Assembly: GCA_001874335.1 (NCBI GenBank)
Contig: MPDE01000013.1
Coordinates: forward strand, 1-64,000
DNA: 64,000 bases
Direction of reading: 5' to 3'
From: Bacteroidetes bacterium MedPE-SWsnd-G2
GTDB lineage: Bacteria > Bacteroidota > Bacteroidia > Flavobacteriales > Flavobacteriaceae
Part shown: one piece after another, positions 51,143 to 59,214 of the stretch
Layout of the letters: each line of letters begins with the position of its first letter
Position numbering within the stretch: the first letter of the stretch is position 1
Program-made: the position numbers and the translations under genes
Notes under the pieces: model-generated
Told to the model about the DNA's origin: nothing
Database searches by the model: none
The model's input: only the letters and a program-made list of their open reading frames with translations

Positions 51143-51955
51143 ATGGAAAAAATGCCAAAAGTAGCCTTACCATTTGTGGTGGCGATAATTGTTGGATTAG
51201 TAGTAATTACCAAATCTGTAGTAACTATAGACTCTGGTCATGCAGGAGTTTTGTATACACTAAGTAATGGTGTAGACCCAGAATCGGAACCATTAGGTGA
51301 AGGAATTAACTTTGTAGCGCCTTGGAATAGTGTTATAGATTATGAAATTCGTCAACAAGAAATTCCAGAAAAAATGTCTGTACTTTCTTCTAATGGATTA
51401 GATATTACTCTAGATGCTTCTGTATTGTATCAACCAGATGTAAAAAACTTAAGTAGACTTCATAAAGAGAAAGGACAAAACTATTTAAGTAGAGTGTTAC
51501 AACCTGCTATTCGTTCTGCTGCTCGTAGTGTTGTGGGGAGATATACTCCAGAACAATTATACTCTAGTAAGCGTGATGCAATTCAAGAAGAAATATTTTC
51601 TGAAACGAAGAAAATTGTGGAGCCACAATACATTCAATTAAACAATATTTTAATTAGAGACGTAACCTTACCTCCAACAATTAAAGACGCTATTGAGCGT
51701 AAATTAAAGCAAGAGCAAGAGTCTTTAGAATACGAATTTAGACTTGTAACAGCCGATAAAGAAGCTCAAAAACAAATTATTGAAGCTCAAGGTAAAGCAG
51801 AAGCAAACCGTATTTTAAGTGCGTCTCTTACCGATAAAATTTTACAAGATAAAGGGATTGAAGCTACAATGAAATTAGCCGAATCACCTAACAGTAAAGT
51901 GATTGTAATAGGTTCTGGAGATAGTGGATTGCCAATTATTTTAGGTGATCAATAA
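51143..51955 (+). CDS. Prohibitin-like SPFH/band 7 protein
   Basis: This 270-residue protein has an N-terminal membrane anchor (VALPFVVAIIVGLVVITKSV), a band 7 domain with TIDSGHAGVLYTLSNG and ITLDASVLYQPD, and a coiled-coil C-terminal part (KEAQKQIIEAQGKAEANRIL). Prohibitins form large ring assemblies that organise membranes and regulate membrane proteases. It lies 10 bases after the VWA gene and about 100 bases before the his leader. Confidence 0.88.
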   Translation: MEKMPKVALPFVVAIIVGLVVITKSVVTIDSGHAGVLYTLSNGVDPESEPLGEGINFVAPWNSVIDYEIRQQEIPEKMSVLSSNGLDITLDASVLYQPDVKNLSRLHKEKGQNYLSRVLQPAIRSAARSVVGRYTPEQLYSSKRDAIQEEIFSETKKIVEPQYIQLNNILIRDVTLPPTIKDAIERKLKQEQESLEYEFRLVTADKEAQKQIIEAQGKAEANRILSASLTDKILQDKGIEATMKLAESPNSKVIVIGSGDSGLPIILGDQ

Positions 51956-52057
51956 CCTGTGATTCAGCGCATTAAAAAGAGTTTAAAATAAGTTTTATGA
52001 AATTTTATTAGGATTTTAAAATTTAAATAACAAATATTTGTACTCAGAACAAAAAAC

Positions 52058-52114
52058 ATGAGTTTTATTCAATTACATCATCATCATTTTCATACTTGCA
52101 CTCAAGCAGGCTGA
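52058..52114 (+). CDS. hisL: Histidine operon leader peptide
   Basis: An 18-codon frame reads MSFIQLHHHHFHTCTQAG and then stops. Five of the six codons from 52076 to 52093 are histidine (four consecutive CAT, TTT, CAT). It precedes hisG by 108 bases and is followed by an antiterminator and terminator, so it is a control peptide: ribosome stalling at these codons senses charged histidyl-tRNA. A 12-base palindrome ACAAATATTTGT lies 16 bases upstream of its ATG. Confidence 0.9.
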   Translation: MSFIQLHHHHFHTCTQAG

Positions 52115-52176
52115 AAATGTATTGAATAAATCCAAATATATTTTAAACCCGTTTGAGTAAATCAAACGGGTTTTTT
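52101..52176 (+). promoter_or_regulatory. Histidine operon transcription attenuator
   Basis: CCCGTTTGAG (52148-52157) is most of the 5' arm of a terminator: AAACCCGTTTGA (52145-52156) pairs with TCAAACGGGTTT (52162-52173), then T-run. The same arm can instead pair with CTCAAGCAGG (52101-52110), 9 of 10 positions including one G-U, to form an antiterminator. That segment lies in the final codons of the leader, so a ribosome stalled at His codons leaves it free, and a ribosome that reaches the stop covers it. This matches classical translation-coupled attenuation. Confidence 0.85.
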
Positions 52177-52222
52177 GTGCTATACACTTTCCTTTCGATT
52201 TGCTCAAACATGTATCACAATT

Positions 52223-53080
52223 ATGAGTAAATTAAAAATAGCAGTTCAAAAATCAGGTAGACTTCATGAAGGCTCAATGAAGCTTTTAAAAGATGTTGGT
52301 ATTGCCATTCAAAATGGGAACAACCAACTAAAAGCATCGGCGCAAAATTTCCCGTTAGAGGTTATTTATTTGCGAAACAGTGATATACCTAAATATTTAA
52401 GAGACGGAATTATTGATGCCGCAATTATTGGTGAGAACTTATTGATTGAGAATGGAAATGATATTTCTGTTTTAGAACAACTCGGTTTTTCAAAATGTAA
52501 AGTGTCAATAGCAATTCCGAAGGATAAAAACTTTTCTGGTATTTCAGATCTAAATGGGAAGCAAATTGCAACCTCATATCCAAATACAGTAACACAATTT
52601 TTAAAATCTAAAAACATTGAAGCCCAGATTCATGTGATTAATGGCTCTGTAGAAGTTGCTCCAAATTTAGGGTTGGCTGATGTAATTTGTGATATTGTTT
52701 CAAGCGGAAATACATTGTTTAAAAACAATCTTAAAGAGGTTTATCAAATGTTTACTTCCCAAGCTGTATTGGCTGTATCTCCTGTTATATCTGAAGAATC
52801 TAAAATTATATTGAACAAATTACAATTCAGAATTAAATCGGTTTTAAAGGGAAGAAACTGTAATTATATACTACTTAATGTGCCTAATGCCAAATTAGAT
52901 AACGTATTGAAAGTTATTCCCGGTATGAAAAGCCCAACAGTTTTGCCATTAGCGAAAGAGGGTTGGTGTTCTGTGCACTCTGTAATAGAGAAATCTTCCT
53001 TTTGGGAAATTATAGACGAACTAAAAGAAAATGGAGCACAAGGTATTTTGGTGTGTCCAATAGAAAACATGGTAATATAA
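52223..53080 (+). CDS. hisG: ATP phosphoribosyltransferase (HisG, long form)
   Basis: HisG joins ATP and PRPP in the first, feedback-inhibited step of histidine synthesis. The ATG used here gives 285 residues; an earlier TTG frame would start inside the terminator. KIAVQKSGRLHEGSMKLL, DAAIIGENLLIENG, KQIATSYPNTVTQFL and VADVICDIVSSGNTLFKNN-type segments (ADVICDIVSSGNTL) are typical. The length indicates the long form with a C-terminal regulatory domain, so no HisZ partner is needed. Confidence 0.95.
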   Translation: MSKLKIAVQKSGRLHEGSMKLLKDVGIAIQNGNNQLKASAQNFPLEVIYLRNSDIPKYLRDGIIDAAIIGENLLIENGNDISVLEQLGFSKCKVSIAIPKDKNFSGISDLNGKQIATSYPNTVTQFLKSKNIEAQIHVINGSVEVAPNLGLADVICDIVSSGNTLFKNNLKEVYQMFTSQAVLAVSPVISEESKIILNKLQFRIKSVLKGRNCNYILLNVPNAKLDNVLKVIPGMKSPTVLPLAKEGWCSVHSVIEKSSFWEIIDELKENGAQGILVCPIENMVI

Positions 53081-53087
53081 CGTAATT

Positions 53088-54368
53088 ATGAAAGTATTTA
53101 AGAATCCAAGTGTAGCAGAATGTAATGCTATTTTGAAACGACCATATAATAATGTTGATGCAATTGAATCTACGGTGATTCAAATATTTGATGACGTTAA
53201 ACGTCAAGGTGATAACGCTCTTAAAAAATATACAGCCATTTTTGACGGAGTTGATTTAAATGAGTTTTGGGTAAGCCCAGAAGACATAGAAATTGCTTCA
53301 GAAAACGTTTCTCCCGATTTAAAGGATGCAATGACTTTAGCAAAATCTAACATTACAAAATTTCATAAAAGTCAAAGTAGTGAGATTAAAAAAATTGAAA
53401 CTTCTCCAGGAGTTATTTGTTGGAGTGAGCAACGCGGAATTGAAAGAGTTGGGTTATACATTCCAGGAGGAACGGCGCCATTATTTTCTACAGTTTTAAT
53501 GTTGGCAATTCCGGCAAAACTGGCGGGATGTAAAGAAATTATCCTGTTTACACCACCAAAAGCCGATGGTTCTATAACTAATGAAATTTTGTATGCTGCC
53601 AAACTGTGCGGCGTAACTAAAATTGTAAAGTTAGGAGGGATTCAAGCTATAGCTGCAATGACTTTTGGCACAGCATCTATTTCAAAAGTGAACAAAATTT
53701 TTGGACCAGGAAATCAGTTTGTTACCGTAGCAAAACAATTAGCAACAAAATATAATGTAGCTATAGATATGCCAGCGGGGCCAAGTGAATTATTGGTGTA
53801 CGCCGATAAATCGGCAAACCCAATTTATGTGGCTTCAGATTTGTTGAGTCAGGCAGAGCATGGTCCCGATAGTCAAGTGGTTTTAGTAAGTCCGGATTGT
53901 GATTTAATTAGTGAAGTTAAAGATCAGTTACAGATTCAAATAAAAAAGTTAAGCCGACAAAAAATAGCTGAGAAAGCCTTAAGTAACTCCAAATTATTAT
54001 GGGTTGAATCTCAAGAAGAAGCCATTCAAATAATTAATGAATATGCTCCAGAACACTTAATAGTATGTGCAACTAACGAAATAGAAGTTTGCGAAAAAAT
54101 TACAAATGCGGGCTCTGTTTTTGTTGGGAATTTTAGCCCTGAAAGTGCAGGAGATTATGCATCGGGAACAAATCACACATTACCAACAAATGGATTTAGT
54201 AAAAGCTATTCTGGAGTGAATTTAAGTGCTTTTCAAAAAAGTATCAGTTTTCAAAAACTATCAAAAGAAGGTCTTTTGAATATTGGTAAAAGTATTGAAT
54301 TGATGGCTGAGGCGGAAGGTTTAATGGGGCACAAAAATGCTGTGAGTTTAAGATTAAAAGATATTTAA
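53088..54368 (+). CDS. hisD: Histidinol dehydrogenase
   Basis: HisD oxidises histidinol to histidine in two NAD-dependent steps. The 426 residues show GLYIPGGTAPLFSTVLMLAI, KIFGPGNQFVTVAKQLA, DMPAGPSELLVYAD, DLLSQAEHGPDSQVVLV with metal ligands, and SAGDYASGTNHTLPTNGFS. The gene is 7 bases after hisG and ends exactly at hisC. Confidence 0.97.
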   Translation: MKVFKNPSVAECNAILKRPYNNVDAIESTVIQIFDDVKRQGDNALKKYTAIFDGVDLNEFWVSPEDIEIASENVSPDLKDAMTLAKSNITKFHKSQSSEIKKIETSPGVICWSEQRGIERVGLYIPGGTAPLFSTVLMLAIPAKLAGCKEIILFTPPKADGSITNEILYAAKLCGVTKIVKLGGIQAIAAMTFGTASISKVNKIFGPGNQFVTVAKQLATKYNVAIDMPAGPSELLVYADKSANPIYVASDLLSQAEHGPDSQVVLVSPDCDLISEVKDQLQIQIKKLSRQKIAEKALSNSKLLWVESQEEAIQIINEYAPEHLIVCATNEIEVCEKITNAGSVFVGNFSPESAGDYASGTNHTLPTNGFSKSYSGVNLSAFQKSISFQKLSKEGLLNIGKSIELMAEAEGLMGHKNAVSLRLKDI

Positions 54369-55409
54369 ATGGAAATTAATTCACTTATAAGAGGCAATAT
54401 AAAACAGTTGAAACCATATGCATCTGCGAGAGATGAGTTTAGTTTTAATCAAGACGATAGCATTTTGTTAGATGCTAATGAAAACCCCTTTGAAACAACT
54501 GTAAATCGATACCCCGACCCTTATCAATTAGAATTGAAAAAGGTGATTTCTAAGAGAAAAAGCGTTCCTATTCATAACATGGTTTTGGGTAATGGTAGTG
54601 ATGAGCTAATTGATTTGATTCTTACTGCTTTTGTCGAACCTAATACAGATGAGGTGATATTGCTTCCACCTACTTACGGAATGTATAAGGTAAGGGCGCA
54701 AATTTTAGGTGCAAAATTGGTTGAAGTTCCTCTAAAACCAGATTTTCAAATTGATGTTGAAGGGATCCTTACTAAGACTTCAGAAAATAGTAAAGTGTTA
54801 TTTATATGTTCTCCCAATAATCCATCTGGTAATTTGATCGCTGCAACAGATGTTGAAATATTGCTTAAAAGGTTTCCGGGAATTGTGGTAATTGATGAAG
54901 CCTATATCGATTTTTCTAAACAAGCATCATTTTGGCGTAAATCCAAAGATTATGAGAATTTAATCATTTTACAAACCTTTTCAAAAGCCTTTGGAATGGC
55001 AGGTTTACGTTTGGGGATGGCCTTTGCCTCTTCGAAAATCGTTAATGTTTTAAACAAAATTAAAGCACCTTATAATATTAATTCACTCACCCAAAGCTAT
55101 GCTATTAAGTCACTAGTTGATTCGGAAAACATATTGAAAAAGGAAGTAAATGATTTGCTGTTTCAAAGAAAATTGCTTGTCGAAGAACTGACTGAATTAA
55201 AAATGGTTCTGAAAATTTATGACTCAGAAACCAACTTTTTACTGGTTAAAGTTGATGACGCCTTTAAACGGTATAATCAATTAAAAGAAAATGGAATAAT
55301 AGTAAGAAATAGAAGCAATTTAATGCACTGTAATCAGTGCTTGAGGATATCAATAGGTACTGAGGTGGAAAACAAAAAATTAGTTACTGTATTAAAATCA
55401 AAAGAATGA
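54369..55409 (+). CDS. hisC: Histidinol-phosphate aminotransferase
   Basis: HisC is a PLP aminotransferase that converts imidazole-acetol phosphate to histidinol phosphate. The 346 residues include LDANENPFE, GNGSDELIDLI, FICSPNNPSGNLI, VVIDEAYIDFS and the PLP lysine in TFSKAFGMAGLRLG. It begins directly after the hisD stop and overlaps hisB by 4 bases. Confidence 0.96.
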   Translation: MEINSLIRGNIKQLKPYASARDEFSFNQDDSILLDANENPFETTVNRYPDPYQLELKKVISKRKSVPIHNMVLGNGSDELIDLILTAFVEPNTDEVILLPPTYGMYKVRAQILGAKLVEVPLKPDFQIDVEGILTKTSENSKVLFICSPNNPSGNLIAATDVEILLKRFPGIVVIDEAYIDFSKQASFWRKSKDYENLIILQTFSKAFGMAGLRLGMAFASSKIVNVLNKIKAPYNINSLTQSYAIKSLVDSENILKKEVNDLLFQRKLLVEELTELKMVLKIYDSETNFLLVKVDDAFKRYNQLKENGIIVRNRSNLMHCNQCLRISIGTEVENKKLVTVLKSKE

Positions 55410-56536
55410 AAAAAGTATTATTTATAGATCGTGACGGTACGATTATAGAAGAGCCGGGAGACCAACAGGTGGATAGTTTTAATAAATTTAAATTTTATCC
55501 GGGAGTCTTTAAAAGCCTCTCTCAAATCTCAGATTTTACAGATTATGAATTTGTATTGGTAACTAATCAAGATGGGTTAGGAACTAAAGGCTATCCCGAA
55601 AATGTGTTTTGGCCAATTCATAATTTTATGATAGAAAGCCTAGAAAATGAAAACATCGTATTCAAGGAGCAAGTCATTGATAGAACCTTTGCAAAAGACA
55701 ATGCAAATACACGAAAACCCAATACAGGATTATTAAATCAATATTTTTCTGAAGAATATAACCTAACCGATTCATTTGTTATTGGTGATCGACTTACTGA
55801 TGTAGAATTGGCAAAGAATTTAGGAAGCAAGGCCATTTTATTGAATAACAATAATTTAGGTGATGAAGAATTAACCAAGACACGAGAAGAATTAGAGCCT
55901 GTTATTGCATTAGAAACAGATTCTTGGAAAACAATTTCAAAATTTTTAATCCAATCAGACCGCTCTGGAGAAAAAAACAGGAATACCAACGAGACCAAGG
56001 TTCAAATTAAAATGAATTTAGATGGTACTGGTGAAAGTGAGATTGACACGGGTATTGCATTTTTTGATCATATGTTAGACCAAATTGCTCGCCATGGTCA
56101 AATTGATTTGAAAATAAAAGTATTAGGTGATTTAAAGGTAGATGAGCATCACACAATAGAAGATACAGCCATAGTTTTAGGGCAGCTTTTTAAAGATCTT
56201 TTGGGAGATAAAAGAGGTATTGAACGTTATGGATTTTGTTTGCCCATGGACGATTGCCTGGCTCAAACAGCAATTGATTTTGGAGGTAGAAACTGGATTG
56301 AATGGGACGCCAATTTTAAACGAGAAATGATTGGGCAAATGCCTACTGAGATGTTTTTCCATTTCTTTAAGTCGTTCACAGATGGCGCAGCTTGTAATTT
56401 AAATGTGAAAGCTGAAGGTGTAAATGAACACCATAAAATTGAAGCTATTTTTAAATCTTTTGCTAAGTCTTTAAAAATGGCAGTAAATAGAGATTATAAT
56501 AAAATGCTTGTTCCAAGTACTAAAGGTGTGTTGTAA
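55406..56536 (+). CDS. hisB: Bifunctional histidinol-phosphatase / imidazoleglycerol-phosphate dehydratase
   Basis: HisB fuses a HAD phosphatase (residues 1 to about 170; DxDxT motif FIDRDGTI) to an imidazoleglycerol-phosphate dehydratase (about 190-376; DTGIAFFDHMLDQIARHG and DEHHTIEDTAI metal-binding histidines). It carries out steps 6 and 8 of the pathway. The fusion is known in enterobacteria and in Bacteroidota. The gene ends one base before the hisH ATG. Confidence 0.96.
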   Translation: MKKVLFIDRDGTIIEEPGDQQVDSFNKFKFYPGVFKSLSQISDFTDYEFVLVTNQDGLGTKGYPENVFWPIHNFMIESLENENIVFKEQVIDRTFAKDNANTRKPNTGLLNQYFSEEYNLTDSFVIGDRLTDVELAKNLGSKAILLNNNNLGDEELTKTREELEPVIALETDSWKTISKFLIQSDRSGEKNRNTNETKVQIKMNLDGTGESEIDTGIAFFDHMLDQIARHGQIDLKIKVLGDLKVDEHHTIEDTAIVLGQLFKDLLGDKRGIERYGFCLPMDDCLAQTAIDFGGRNWIEWDANFKREMIGQMPTEMFFHFFKSFTDGAACNLNVKAEGVNEHHKIEAIFKSFAKSLKMAVNRDYNKMLVPSTKGVL

Positions 56537-56537
56537 A

Positions 56538-57125
56538 ATGAAAGTGGTAATTATTAATTATGGTTCGGGAAATATTAAAAGCATTGAGTTTGCTTTTAAT
56601 AGATTAGGGGTAAAACCATACCTGTCAAATAATATAGATGAGATTTTGGCAGCCGATCGCGTGATTTTTCCTGGCGTAGGGGAAGCTTCAAGTGCAAAGC
56701 ACGCATTAGTTAAAAGTGGATTAGATAGTCTTATTCCTGGGTTAAAACAGCCTGTTTTAGGAATTTGTTTGGGAATGCAACTATTGTGCAATTACACTGA
56801 AGAGGGTGATACCATGGGGTTGGGGGTGTTTAACACAAGTGTTAAGCGGTTTTCAAATAAAGTAAAGGTGCCCCAAATGGGATGGAATACTGTTGAGAAT
56901 TTGAATTCAGAGTTGTTTGAGTCCATTAATGAAGGCTCTTTTTTCTATGGTGTTCATAGTTATTATGCCGAAGATTCGGGAGTAACGATAGCAAATTCTA
57001 ATTATGATAAAACTTATGCATCGGCTTTAAATTTTAAAAATTTTTATGGGGTTCAATTCCATCCTGAAAAAAGCGGACAACAAGGATCTCAACTATTAAA
57101 TAACTTTTTAAACATAGAAAAATGA
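56538..57125 (+). CDS. hisH: Imidazole glycerol phosphate synthase glutaminase subunit
   Basis: HisH supplies ammonia from glutamine to HisF. The 195 residues start at [18 protein letters not shown] and contain the nucleophile cysteine in GICLGMQLL and the HE pair in VQFHPEKSG. An in-frame start 10 codons earlier lies in hisB and is rejected. It overlaps hisA by 4 bases (ATGA). Confidence 0.96.
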
Positions 57126-57847
57126 AAATTGTACCAGCTATAGATATAATAAATGGTAAGTGTGTTAGGCTTACCAAAGGCGATTTTAATTCGGTTAAAA
57201 TATATAATGAAAACCCTTTAGAAGTGGCTAAAACTTTTGAAGATAGCGGAATTGAATATCTTCATTTAGTTGATTTAGATGGTTCTAAAGCAAAGAAAAT
57301 AGTGAATTATAAAATACTGGAAAGTATAGCATCTAAAACTAATCTTAAGATTGATTTTGGTGGTGGATTGAGAACCAATGAAGATCTTAAAATTGCATTT
57401 AATTCGGGAGCTAATCAGATAACAGGTGGGAGTATTGCCATCAAAAATCGAGAATTATTTTCAAATTGGATTAAAATGTATGGATCTGATAAAATTATTT
57501 TGGGTGCAGATTGTAAAAACAGAAGGATAGCAATTAATGGATGGCAAAATAGTGTAGATGTAGAAGTTGTTGATTTTATCACTGAATACGTTGAAAAGGG
57601 AATAAAAAACGTGATTTGTACAGATATAGAAAAGGATGGAATGCTGCAAGGCCCTTCAACTGTCCTGTATAGAGACATTCTTAAAAAAGTAGATAATCTA
57701 AATTTAGTGGCATCAGGTGGGGTTTCTACATTAGATGATCTTTATGAATTAAGAGAAATTGGCTGCCATGCTACAATATTAGGGAAAGCCATTTATGAAA
57801 ACAGAATTTCATTAAAACAACTGGAAAACTTCATTCTTAATTCTTAA
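57122..57847 (+). CDS. hisA: ProFAR isomerase
   Basis: HisA is the (beta/alpha)8 isomerase that opens the ribosyl ring of ProFAR. The 241 residues begin [20 protein letters not shown] with the catalytic aspartate, then [37 protein letters not shown] with the second aspartate, and [13 protein letters not shown]. Confidence 0.96.
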
Positions 57848-57853
57848 AAACAC

Positions 57854-58609
57854 ATGTTGACAAAACGTATTATACCATGTTTAGATATTCATAACGGAAG
57901 AACAGTAAAAGGTGTGAATTTTAAAAATTTAAAGGATGCTGGTGATCCAATAGCCTTAGCAAAAATGTATGCAAAAGTAGGTGCTGATGAGCTCGTCTTT
58001 TTAGATATTTCAGCAACTATTGAACAGCGCCAAACCACATTGAATTTGGTGTTAAAAATAGCCGAGCATATTGATATTCCTTTTACCGTTGGCGGTGGAA
58101 TTAACACTGTAAAAGATGTAGAATTACTTTTAAATAATGGAGCCGATAAAATTGCAATTAACTCGGCAGCAATCAACAATCCTCAACTTATAGCCGATTT
58201 AGTTTCGAGGTTTGGCAGTCAATGTATCACAGTAGCAATTGATGCTTATTGTGAAAATGATAAGTGGGAGGTTTATAAAAATGGTGGGACTGTGTCCACT
58301 TCTAAAAATCTGTTTGAATGGGCAAAGACGGTTGAGAAATTAGGTGCCGGTGAAATTTTATTCACAGCTATGAATAACGATGGAACGAAAAAAGGTTTTG
58401 CTAATCAGGCGTTATTTCAATTATCAAAAGAAGTAAATATCCCGATTATAGCTTCTGGTGGAGCTGGTAATATTGATCATTTTTCAGATGCTTTTGAGAA
58501 AGGAAATGCCGATGCAGCCTTAGCGGCTAGTGTGTTTCATTACGGAGAAATAAACATTCAAAAATTAAAGTACAAATTAAAGCAAAAAGGAATCGCGGTA
58601 AGATTATAA
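57854..58609 (+). CDS. hisF: Imidazole glycerol phosphate synthase cyclase subunit
   Basis: HisF forms imidazole glycerol phosphate and AICAR with ammonia from HisH. This 251-residue barrel has [79 protein letters not shown] and [12 protein letters not shown]. Both catalytic aspartates (in CLDI and MNNDGT) are present. Confidence 0.97.
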
Positions 58610-58611
58610 TT

Positions 58612-59214
58612 ATGATAGAACAATTAAATTTTAATAAAAACAACAACGGATTGATTCCGGTTATTATTCAAGATTATAAAACTGCTACAGTTCTAATGCT
58701 TGGATATATGAATAAGGAGGCCTTTAAAAAAACAAGGTTAACTCAAAAAGTGTGCTTCTATTCAAGAACTAAAAAAAGACTATGGACCAAAGGAGAGTCA
58801 AGTGGTAATTTCTTGAATGTAATTAAAATCATGACAGATTGTGATTTTGATAGTTTGCTAATAAAGGTTAAGCCTGAAGGCCCTGTTTGTCATAAAGGAT
58901 CCGATAGTTGTTGGGGAGAATCTAATAGTAATGCATTATCATTTCTTTCTGAATTAGAAGATAAGATTGCTGAAAGAAGGCAAACAAATTTAAATACATC
59001 TTATGTCAGTTCGTTATTTGAAAAAGGAATCAATAAAATAGCTCAGAAGGTAGGAGAGGAGGCTATAGAAATGGTTATTGAGGCAAAAGATGATAATAAA
59101 GATTTGTTTTTAAATGAAAGTGCCGATTTGCTTTTTCATTATCTCATTTTGCTTCAAGCAAAAGGTTTTGGTTTAAAAGATGTCACAGCAATTTTGGAGC
59201 AAAGAGCAAAATAG
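58612..59214 (+). CDS. hisI: Bifunctional phosphoribosyl-AMP cyclohydrolase / phosphoribosyl-ATP pyrophosphatase
   Basis: HisIE carries steps 2 and 3 of the pathway in one 200-residue chain. The HisI half has ATVLMLGYMNKEAFKKT, CFYSRTKKRLWTKGESSGN and the zinc-binding CHKGSDSCWG; the HisE half has the EEAIEMVIEAKDDNKDLFLN motif. It is the last gene of the operon, 2 bases after hisF. Confidence 0.96.
   Translation: MIEQLNFNKNNNGLIPVIIQDYKTATVLMLGYMNKEAFKKTRLTQKVCFYSRTKKRLWTKGESSGNFLNVIKIMTDCDFDSLLIKVKPEGPVCHKGSDSCWGESNSNALSFLSELEDKIAERRQTNLNTSYVSSLFEKGINKIAQKVGEEAIEMVIEAKDDNKDLFLNESADLLFHYLILLQAKGFGLKDVTAILEQRAK

Follow-up and report, generated by a model that had tools for sequence, protein, structure and literature searches.

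A predicted histidine operon attenuator in a flavobacterial genome with an additional RNA segment that pairs with the terminator arm and may act on the hisG start

The DNA analysed here, referred to as the window, is a stretch of 64,000 nucleotides (nt) from Bacteroidetes bacterium MedPE-SWsnd-G2, a member of the Flavobacteriaceae (positions 1 to 64,000 of contig MPDE01000013.1, assembly GCA_001874335.1), and all features described lie on its forward (+) strand. It contains a histidine (his) operon preceded by an element whose anatomy and conservation mark it as a ribosome-mediated his attenuator, and behind the terminator of this attenuator lies a further RNA segment, named hereafter segment 5, which covaries with the terminator 5′ arm and loop and which might couple the state of the terminator to translation of hisG. 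The leader peptide open reading frame (ORF; MSFIQLHHHHFHTCTQAG, 52058-52114, ATG to TGA) is conserved in relatives and has 18 codons. Codons 7-12 read HHHHFH, that is, five His in six (His codons at 52076-52087 and 52091-52093), which confirms the leader described in the initial annotation made from the sequence alone. hisG (52223-53080; TIGR00070, score over the cut-off) begins at the ATG at 52223, assigned via the conserved N-terminus MSKLKIA, and is followed by hisD, hisC, hisB, hisH, hisA, hisF and hisIE (53088-59214; each over its NCBIfam cut-off), so that a complete operon in the order hisG-D-C-B-H-A-F-IE stands downstream of the leader. The terminator had been annotated as ending just before hisG, which is wrong, as the hisG ATG lies 46 nt past its T-run.

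The leader hairpin (1:2), taken from the predicted fold, covers 52064-52130 and consists of the helices 52064-52073/52121-52130, 52085-52092/52112-52119 and 52095-52099/52106-52110. Segment 2, the antiterminator strand (52100-52123), has its core at 52101-52110 (CTCAAGCAGG), which matches 52148-52157 (CCCGTTTGAG) with nine of ten pairs, one of them G-U, and one A-C mismatch, as originally proposed. This 2:3 match extends to 24 nt (52100-52123 with 52135-52158) at 79% complementarity. Segment 3, the terminator 5′ arm (52145-52156), pairs with the 3′ arm (52162-52173) in a stem of 12 base pairs (bp) with a 5-nt loop; the 3′ arm and the T-run (52171-52176) together make up segment 4 (52162-52176). 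A terminator search found one terminator here against a mean of 0.1 in shuffled sequences, and the T-tailed terminator of the initial annotation is thereby borne out. The 24-nt antiterminator match overlaps and competes with the 12-bp terminator. The fold of 52040-52180 has an energy of −37.8 kcal/mol (z −6.25), and none of 200 shuffles was equally stable. Scanning 51600-52500 against Rfam gave no match at the gathering score, and RF00514 (His_leader) was not among the 14 sub-threshold rows. The enterobacterial his attenuator comprises a His-codon leader peptide, a leader hairpin, an antiterminator and a T-tailed terminator before hisG. All four of those features are common to RF00514 and the present locus, which differs in its unrelated sequence, in the five His in six codons and in the extra segment 5 behind the terminator. 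By analogy with the E. coli his mechanism, in the presence of histidine the ribosome would clear the leader, 1:2 and 3:4 would form and transcription would stop. When charged histidine transfer RNA is short, the ribosome would stall in the His run and cover segment 1, 2:3 would form and RNA polymerase would continue. The anatomy is seen directly in the leader, and an attenuation process of this kind very probably operates here.

Conservation was assessed in sets of loci gathered by protein search. The first set contained 92 hisG upstream regions, namely L002 and L003, from a contig scan that gave three loci, and 90 from genomes of the family, of which 199 were searched and 166 carry hisG; these were the best 90 of 166 in the hit list (G169 being passed over) and not a random draw. 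The order set added 43 loci sampled across the order, of which 14 likewise belong to the window's family, and a third set comprised 40 hisG loci from outside the order. The genus-level sample consisted of one genome; L004, which starts within hisG, and L095-L098, whose genomes were already in the set, were dropped. A His-rich leader ORF, defined as a short ORF in which seven codons include three His or more, was present in 91 of the 92 regions of the first set, 41 of the 43 loci of the order set and 36 of the 40 outside the order. For the first set, it appeared in 52 of 1840 dinucleotide shuffles and in none of the 92 regions when reverse-complemented. The only miss among the 92, L012, has just 118 nt upstream, and the two misses in the order set, L135 and L136, both come from 0.6-megabase genomes (family f16). 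With a permissive script, a hairpin resembling a terminator was placed downstream of the leader in all 132 leader-bearing loci from the first set and the order set, at least one of them (L125) being misplaced, and in 25 of the 36 leader-bearing loci outside the order. In L135 and L136, hisG has a terminator-like hairpin upstream but no His-rich leader ORF, possibly through decay of the attenuator in these reduced genomes. Outside the order, L159, L160, L173 and L174 (family f17) have a His-rich leader before hisG and no strong terminator by the script; their leaders may act on translation.

Covariation was counted on a tree of 115 loci (HisG plus the first 330 residues of HisD), a compensatory change being a change of one standard pair into another on the same branch (104 loci for 1:2, 79 for 3:4 and 104 for 2:3). 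In 1:2, 82.6% of the cells were paired, and 32 compensatory changes were seen versus 7.0 expected; in 3:4 the figures were 99.1% (79 loci) and nine versus 0.28. No covariation support was obtained for 2:3 within the family (three changes versus 4.8 expected), where the core pairs are kept in most loci and are nearly invariant. That the core is nearly frozen is understandable, since the same bases code for Thr-Gln-Ala and have two pairing partners to fit. As a duplex, 2:3 reached p<0.05 in 94 of 104 family loci, 20 of 28 order loci and 15 of 25 loci outside the order; in the latter, whose sequences diverge, the leader 3′ end scored −12.6 with its own terminator versus −8.9 with a swapped one (0/5000 as good). 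A codon-rich leader ORF, an intrinsic terminator, an antiterminator and a leader hairpin overlapping the codon run are all present, and on these grounds the locus is assigned to the ribosome-mediated his attenuators, with a response to histidine as the predicted outcome. The initial annotation had recommended comparing regions upstream of hisG and had named a lack of conservation as counting against its reading. At the sequence level no such lack was seen, as relatives retain the His codons, the leader hairpin, the core of the antiterminator and the terminator. The histidine-codon-dependent transcription attenuation proposed in that annotation is the best-supported reading of these conserved elements.

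Segment 5 (GATTTGCTCAAAC, 52197-52209) sits in the 46-nt gap between terminator and hisG AUG and was first spotted when 91 regions were compared. It is complementary both to the hisG start (5:6, see below) and to 52151-52163 (GTTTGAGTAAATC), that is, part of segment 3 plus the loop to 52163, with which it forms 13 pairs, one of them G-U (3:5). The 3:5 pairing was tested on 131 of the 132 loci (L106, with a 10-nt spacer, was left out), and the best duplex of arm plus loop with the spacer beat shuffles at p<0.01 in 89 loci and at p<0.05 in 100, about one locus being expected by chance at p<0.01. The shuffles used for this test, for 5:6, for 2:3 and for the spacers keep base composition only, not dinucleotides. 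With the own versus a swapped partner, 3:5 scored −13.6 versus −9.6 over the 131 loci and −16.3 versus −11.4 over the 89 positive ones (0/5000 in both cases); some gene starts are about 4 nt off, which hardly affects the figures for the 131 loci and the free-fold energies. In an alignment that took no account of pairing (79 of the 104 loci from the family, with 28-62 nt spacers; L072 out), 87.1% of the 3:5 cells were paired, compared with 24.6-50.9% when the pairing was slid by one to three columns, and this count is lowered by seven rows of genus g127 that are misaligned at segment 5. On the same alignment, 76 cells had changes on both sides versus 37 in column shuffles. The tree gave 15 compensatory changes in 3:5 versus 2.1 expected (0/2000), and one, zero, zero and zero when the pairing was slid by −2, −1, +1 and +2. 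Loci with 3:5 of divergent sequence include L118, L081, L091, L065, L035 and L003.

The match of segment 5 with the terminator arm and loop is an inverted repeat in DNA and might be a DNA operator, or else a chance match. However, G-U cells outnumber A-C cells by 105 to 23 (46 to 7 in the loop part), as expected for RNA pairing. On this ratio the operator candidate was rejected, and together with the 89 positive loci and the 15 compensatory changes it makes an origin of the repeat as operator or chance match highly improbable. A kissing contact made by the loop only was likewise rejected, as the stem part of the arm is also matched. Covariation shows that segment 5 truly pairs as RNA with the terminator arm and loop, and it is very likely functional. 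The pairing could instead be made in trans, the terminated leader being released as a small RNA that pairs with segment 5 of the full-length his messenger RNA (mRNA). Cis and trans pairing give the same covariation, the match includes the loop, and there is a reported precedent in the trans-acting attenuator RNA rnTrpL of Sinorhizobium. Yet the match covers the stem of the 5′ arm as well (columns 12-17 are unpaired in 8, 5, 2, 1, 3 and 4 of 78 loci), a part that a released leader would have tied up in its terminator stem, and the cis partner lies less than 60 nt away, so we consider trans action quite unlikely.

From the last paired base of segment 5 to the AUG the median distance is 16 nt, and in 75 of the 89 loci it is at most 25 nt. 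Short G+C-rich palindromes occur between terminator and hisG in L006, L013, L017, L024, L025, L026, L052 and L087, often directly before the start codon, where they displace segment 5 from the AUG. The hisG start itself (segment 6, TGAGTAAATT, 52224-52233) is similar to 52155-52162 (TGAGTAAA..T) and is a potential partner of segment 5; in the predicted fold with the terminator formed, GATTTGCTCA of segment 5 is paired with TGAGTAAATT. The hisG start thus resembles the terminator arm plus loop. Tests at the start codon covered 126 of the 132 loci (L072, L106, L131 and spacers of 25 nt or less were left out). 5:6 reached p<0.05 in 53 of these, namely 50 of the 89 with 3:5 and three of the 37 without it, compared with eight of 126 for a control hisG stretch (six of 89 and two of 37). 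Own versus swapped partners scored −8.7 versus −7.5 (0/5000). An ATGAGT start was present in 76 of the 89 loci with 3:5 versus seven of the 37 without, and this start and 3:5 changed on the same branch seven times versus 1.3 expected. Relative to shuffled spacers, the AUG was less open in 3:5-positive loci (mean −0.09) and more open in the negative ones (+0.08; p = 1e-4). Even in 38 loci without a long 5:6 match, most of which have ACTCAT facing ATGAGT, the AUG was still closed (group mean 0.23 versus 0.41 with shuffled spacers). We take the 3:5 pairing as established; the tests of 5:6 disagree with one another (see below), and we regard it as likely but unproven. The simple two-state RNA of the initial annotation is therefore an incomplete description, leader hairpin 1:2, covarying 3:5 and possible 5:6 also being present. 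In two related loci, L005 and L006, the arm (GTTTGAAC/GTTTGAAT) and the hisG start (ATGAAC/ATGAAT) depart alike from the usual GAG and AGT, a parallel departure that start-codon mimicry would predict.

These pairings could be combined as follows. Segment 5 would read the state of the terminator and couple it to translation of hisG. When 3:4 has formed, free segment 5 would pair with the hisG start (5:6) and silence messages that leaked through the terminator. When 3:4 is prevented, the unpaired terminator loop would serve as a toehold, segment 5 would displace segment 2, and the resulting 3:5 would leave the hisG start open. A his attenuator with an added segment-5 RNA switch on hisG translation, whose last step is the conjectural one, is a reading that we put forward tentatively, with a little less than even confidence. 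Its wider form is more tentative still: in this order the his terminator would be a start-codon mimic and segment 5 a sensor of the terminator hairpin that opens or closes the hisG start, such that a single signal from one stalled ribosome would reach first RNA polymerase and afterwards translation, in a lineage without Shine-Dalgarno use. The remark in the initial annotation that initiation here is free of Shine-Dalgarno sequences agrees with what PMC6847099 describes. If segment 5 does work in this way, the terminator hairpin has been reused as a translation signal. The terminator loop can be altered without touching the terminator stem, the antiterminator or the leader peptide.

When the states were imposed on the 89 loci positive for 3:5 at 25°C, the AUG was more accessible in the 3:5 state than in the 3:4 state in 63 loci and less so in 11, and the region from −12 to +12 was more open in 59 and less open in six; in the window this region opens from 0.36 to 0.52 with 3:5. 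A number of results weigh against the switch. Free folding favours 3:5 over 3:4 in five of the 89 loci, 3:5 being weaker in the other 84 (median 6.9 kcal/mol worse), and at equilibrium the probability of 3:5 exceeds 0.1 in eight. In folding with a ribosome footprint, as the initial annotation had advised, 3:4 was still lower than 2:3 in 84 of the 89 loci. The terminator is thus energetically ahead even under a stall, and the segment-5 model has to rest on kinetics. Under a stall 3:5 beats 2:3 narrowly (median −1.6; better in 59 of 89), and in the window 2:3 is better than 3:5 by 3.1 kcal/mol and openness of the AUG itself drops from 0.35 to 0.08 with 3:5. With 2:3 formed, 5:6 is still possible and would close the AUG. 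In the loci with inserted hairpins, segment 5 stands 40-49 nt from the AUG. As for 5:6, 38-39 of the 89 loci with 3:5 miss p<0.05; 73.8% of its cells are paired on the alignment (31.7-49.6% in slid versions), with no excess over column shuffles (109/500 as high); and its compensatory changes number four versus 1.9 expected (p 0.13). Among the seven shared changes of ATGAGT start and 3:5, three fall on deep branches and depend on the reconstruction, and those at L042 and L005/L006 hinge on start assignment or threshold.

Several of these points would suit a switch of opposite sign, in which 3:5 is the closed state. The 13-bp helix, whose end is some 16 nt short of the AUG, would block ribosome entry on leaked messages, segment 2 would relieve the block by taking segment 3, and the 5:6 match would be a by-product of hisG starts of the form ATGAGTAAA. 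The end of segment 5 does fall within the −20 to +20 region around the start, which is usually unstructured in Flavobacterium johnsoniae (PMC6847099); 5:6 fails the column-shuffle and compensatory-change tests; and accessibility of the AUG in the window falls with 3:5. This arrangement, though, needs 3:5 to be stronger than 3:4, which holds in just those five of 89 loci, a comparison of 3:5 with 3:4 shows the start region to be more open in 59 of 89 and less open in six, and ATGAGT starts track 3:5 on the tree. We therefore regard the opposite sign as unlikely. To a similar degree we doubt that the element is a plain transcription attenuator in which 3:5 serves RNA stability or processing, or keeps the terminator hairpin from closing in the finished mRNA, with no control of the hisG start. 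Covariation in 3:5 shows that the pairing is kept, not why, and the pheA and trpE attenuators manage without a segment 5, but its closeness to the AUG and its co-change with the hisG start speak for a role there, as in the switch on hisG translation.

Full-text literature searches, the coverage of which leaves out most subscription journals, returned no description of segment 5, which is undescribed within the literature searched and well supported as an RNA pairing. In the TRAP-controlled trp operon of B. subtilis, termination control is combined with start-site sequestration in readthrough transcripts; its sensor is an RNA-binding protein, versus a stalled ribosome here. In the tlrB (yxjB) leader of Bacillus subtilis, as reported in PMC6851288, a terminator and a start-hiding hairpin are under the control of a single leader peptide, and leaked transcripts are held back at translation. 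It differs in that it senses tylosin, needs NusG pausing and hides a Shine-Dalgarno site (PMC6851288). Moreover, its authors found no overlapping antiterminator (PMC6851288), whereas at the his locus the terminator arm itself would compete for the start-hiding segment. For Flavobacterium psychrophilum, within the Bacteroidota, Guérin 2021 (PMC9723704) describes "strong clues" that amino-acid operons are preceded by leader-peptide attenuators, together with a conserved structured 5′ element of hisG that is present in other Flavobacteriaceae genera. The main text of the paper gives no anatomy for this element. The attenuation logic that the initial annotation proposed for a Bacteroidota genome thus holds at this locus but is not new, its core being already known in outline for the Flavobacteriaceae through PMC9723704. 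Segment 5 is what is added, as judged against the main text of that paper. Leader-like short ORFs are also described for Bacteroides thetaiotaomicron in PMC7366714, in excerpts that do not name hisG.

A possible trace of the promoter is the TTTG at 52037-52040, a weak candidate for the 3′ end of the Bacteroidota −7 box TAnnTTTG (a name taken from PMC9723704). Among 101 family loci, 98 have TTTG no more than 45 nt ahead of the leader ATG, but only 27 have the full TAnnTTTG. Beyond his, all 12 family genomes examined, the window's genome included, have a Phe-rich leader before pheA and a Trp-rich one before trpE; in the window's genome these loci (pheA, L181, on G000:C17; trpE, L196, on G000:C1) have leaders and terminators near the start codon. 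The spacers from terminator to start have a median of 13 nt for pheA and 13.5 nt for trpE. From the 10 pheA and 12 trpE loci taken, segment 5 was found in none of the four and five testable ones, respectively (L190 and L191 were left out because the pheA start is misplaced, and the other untestable spacers are shorter than 15 nt), and the idea that segment 5 is general among flavobacterial attenuators was rejected. Short ORFs rich in Ile, Leu and Val, as candidate leaders, were noted at seven of 10 ilvD loci. Outside the order, a match resembling 3:5 occurs in three of 24 testable his loci (L146, L161 and L178). One of these, L161 (genome G472, which shares only the phylum with the window), combines a his leader of the Flavobacteriales type, segment 5 included, with a ATGAGTAAAC hisG start, and reflects either horizontal transfer or a misassigned contig.
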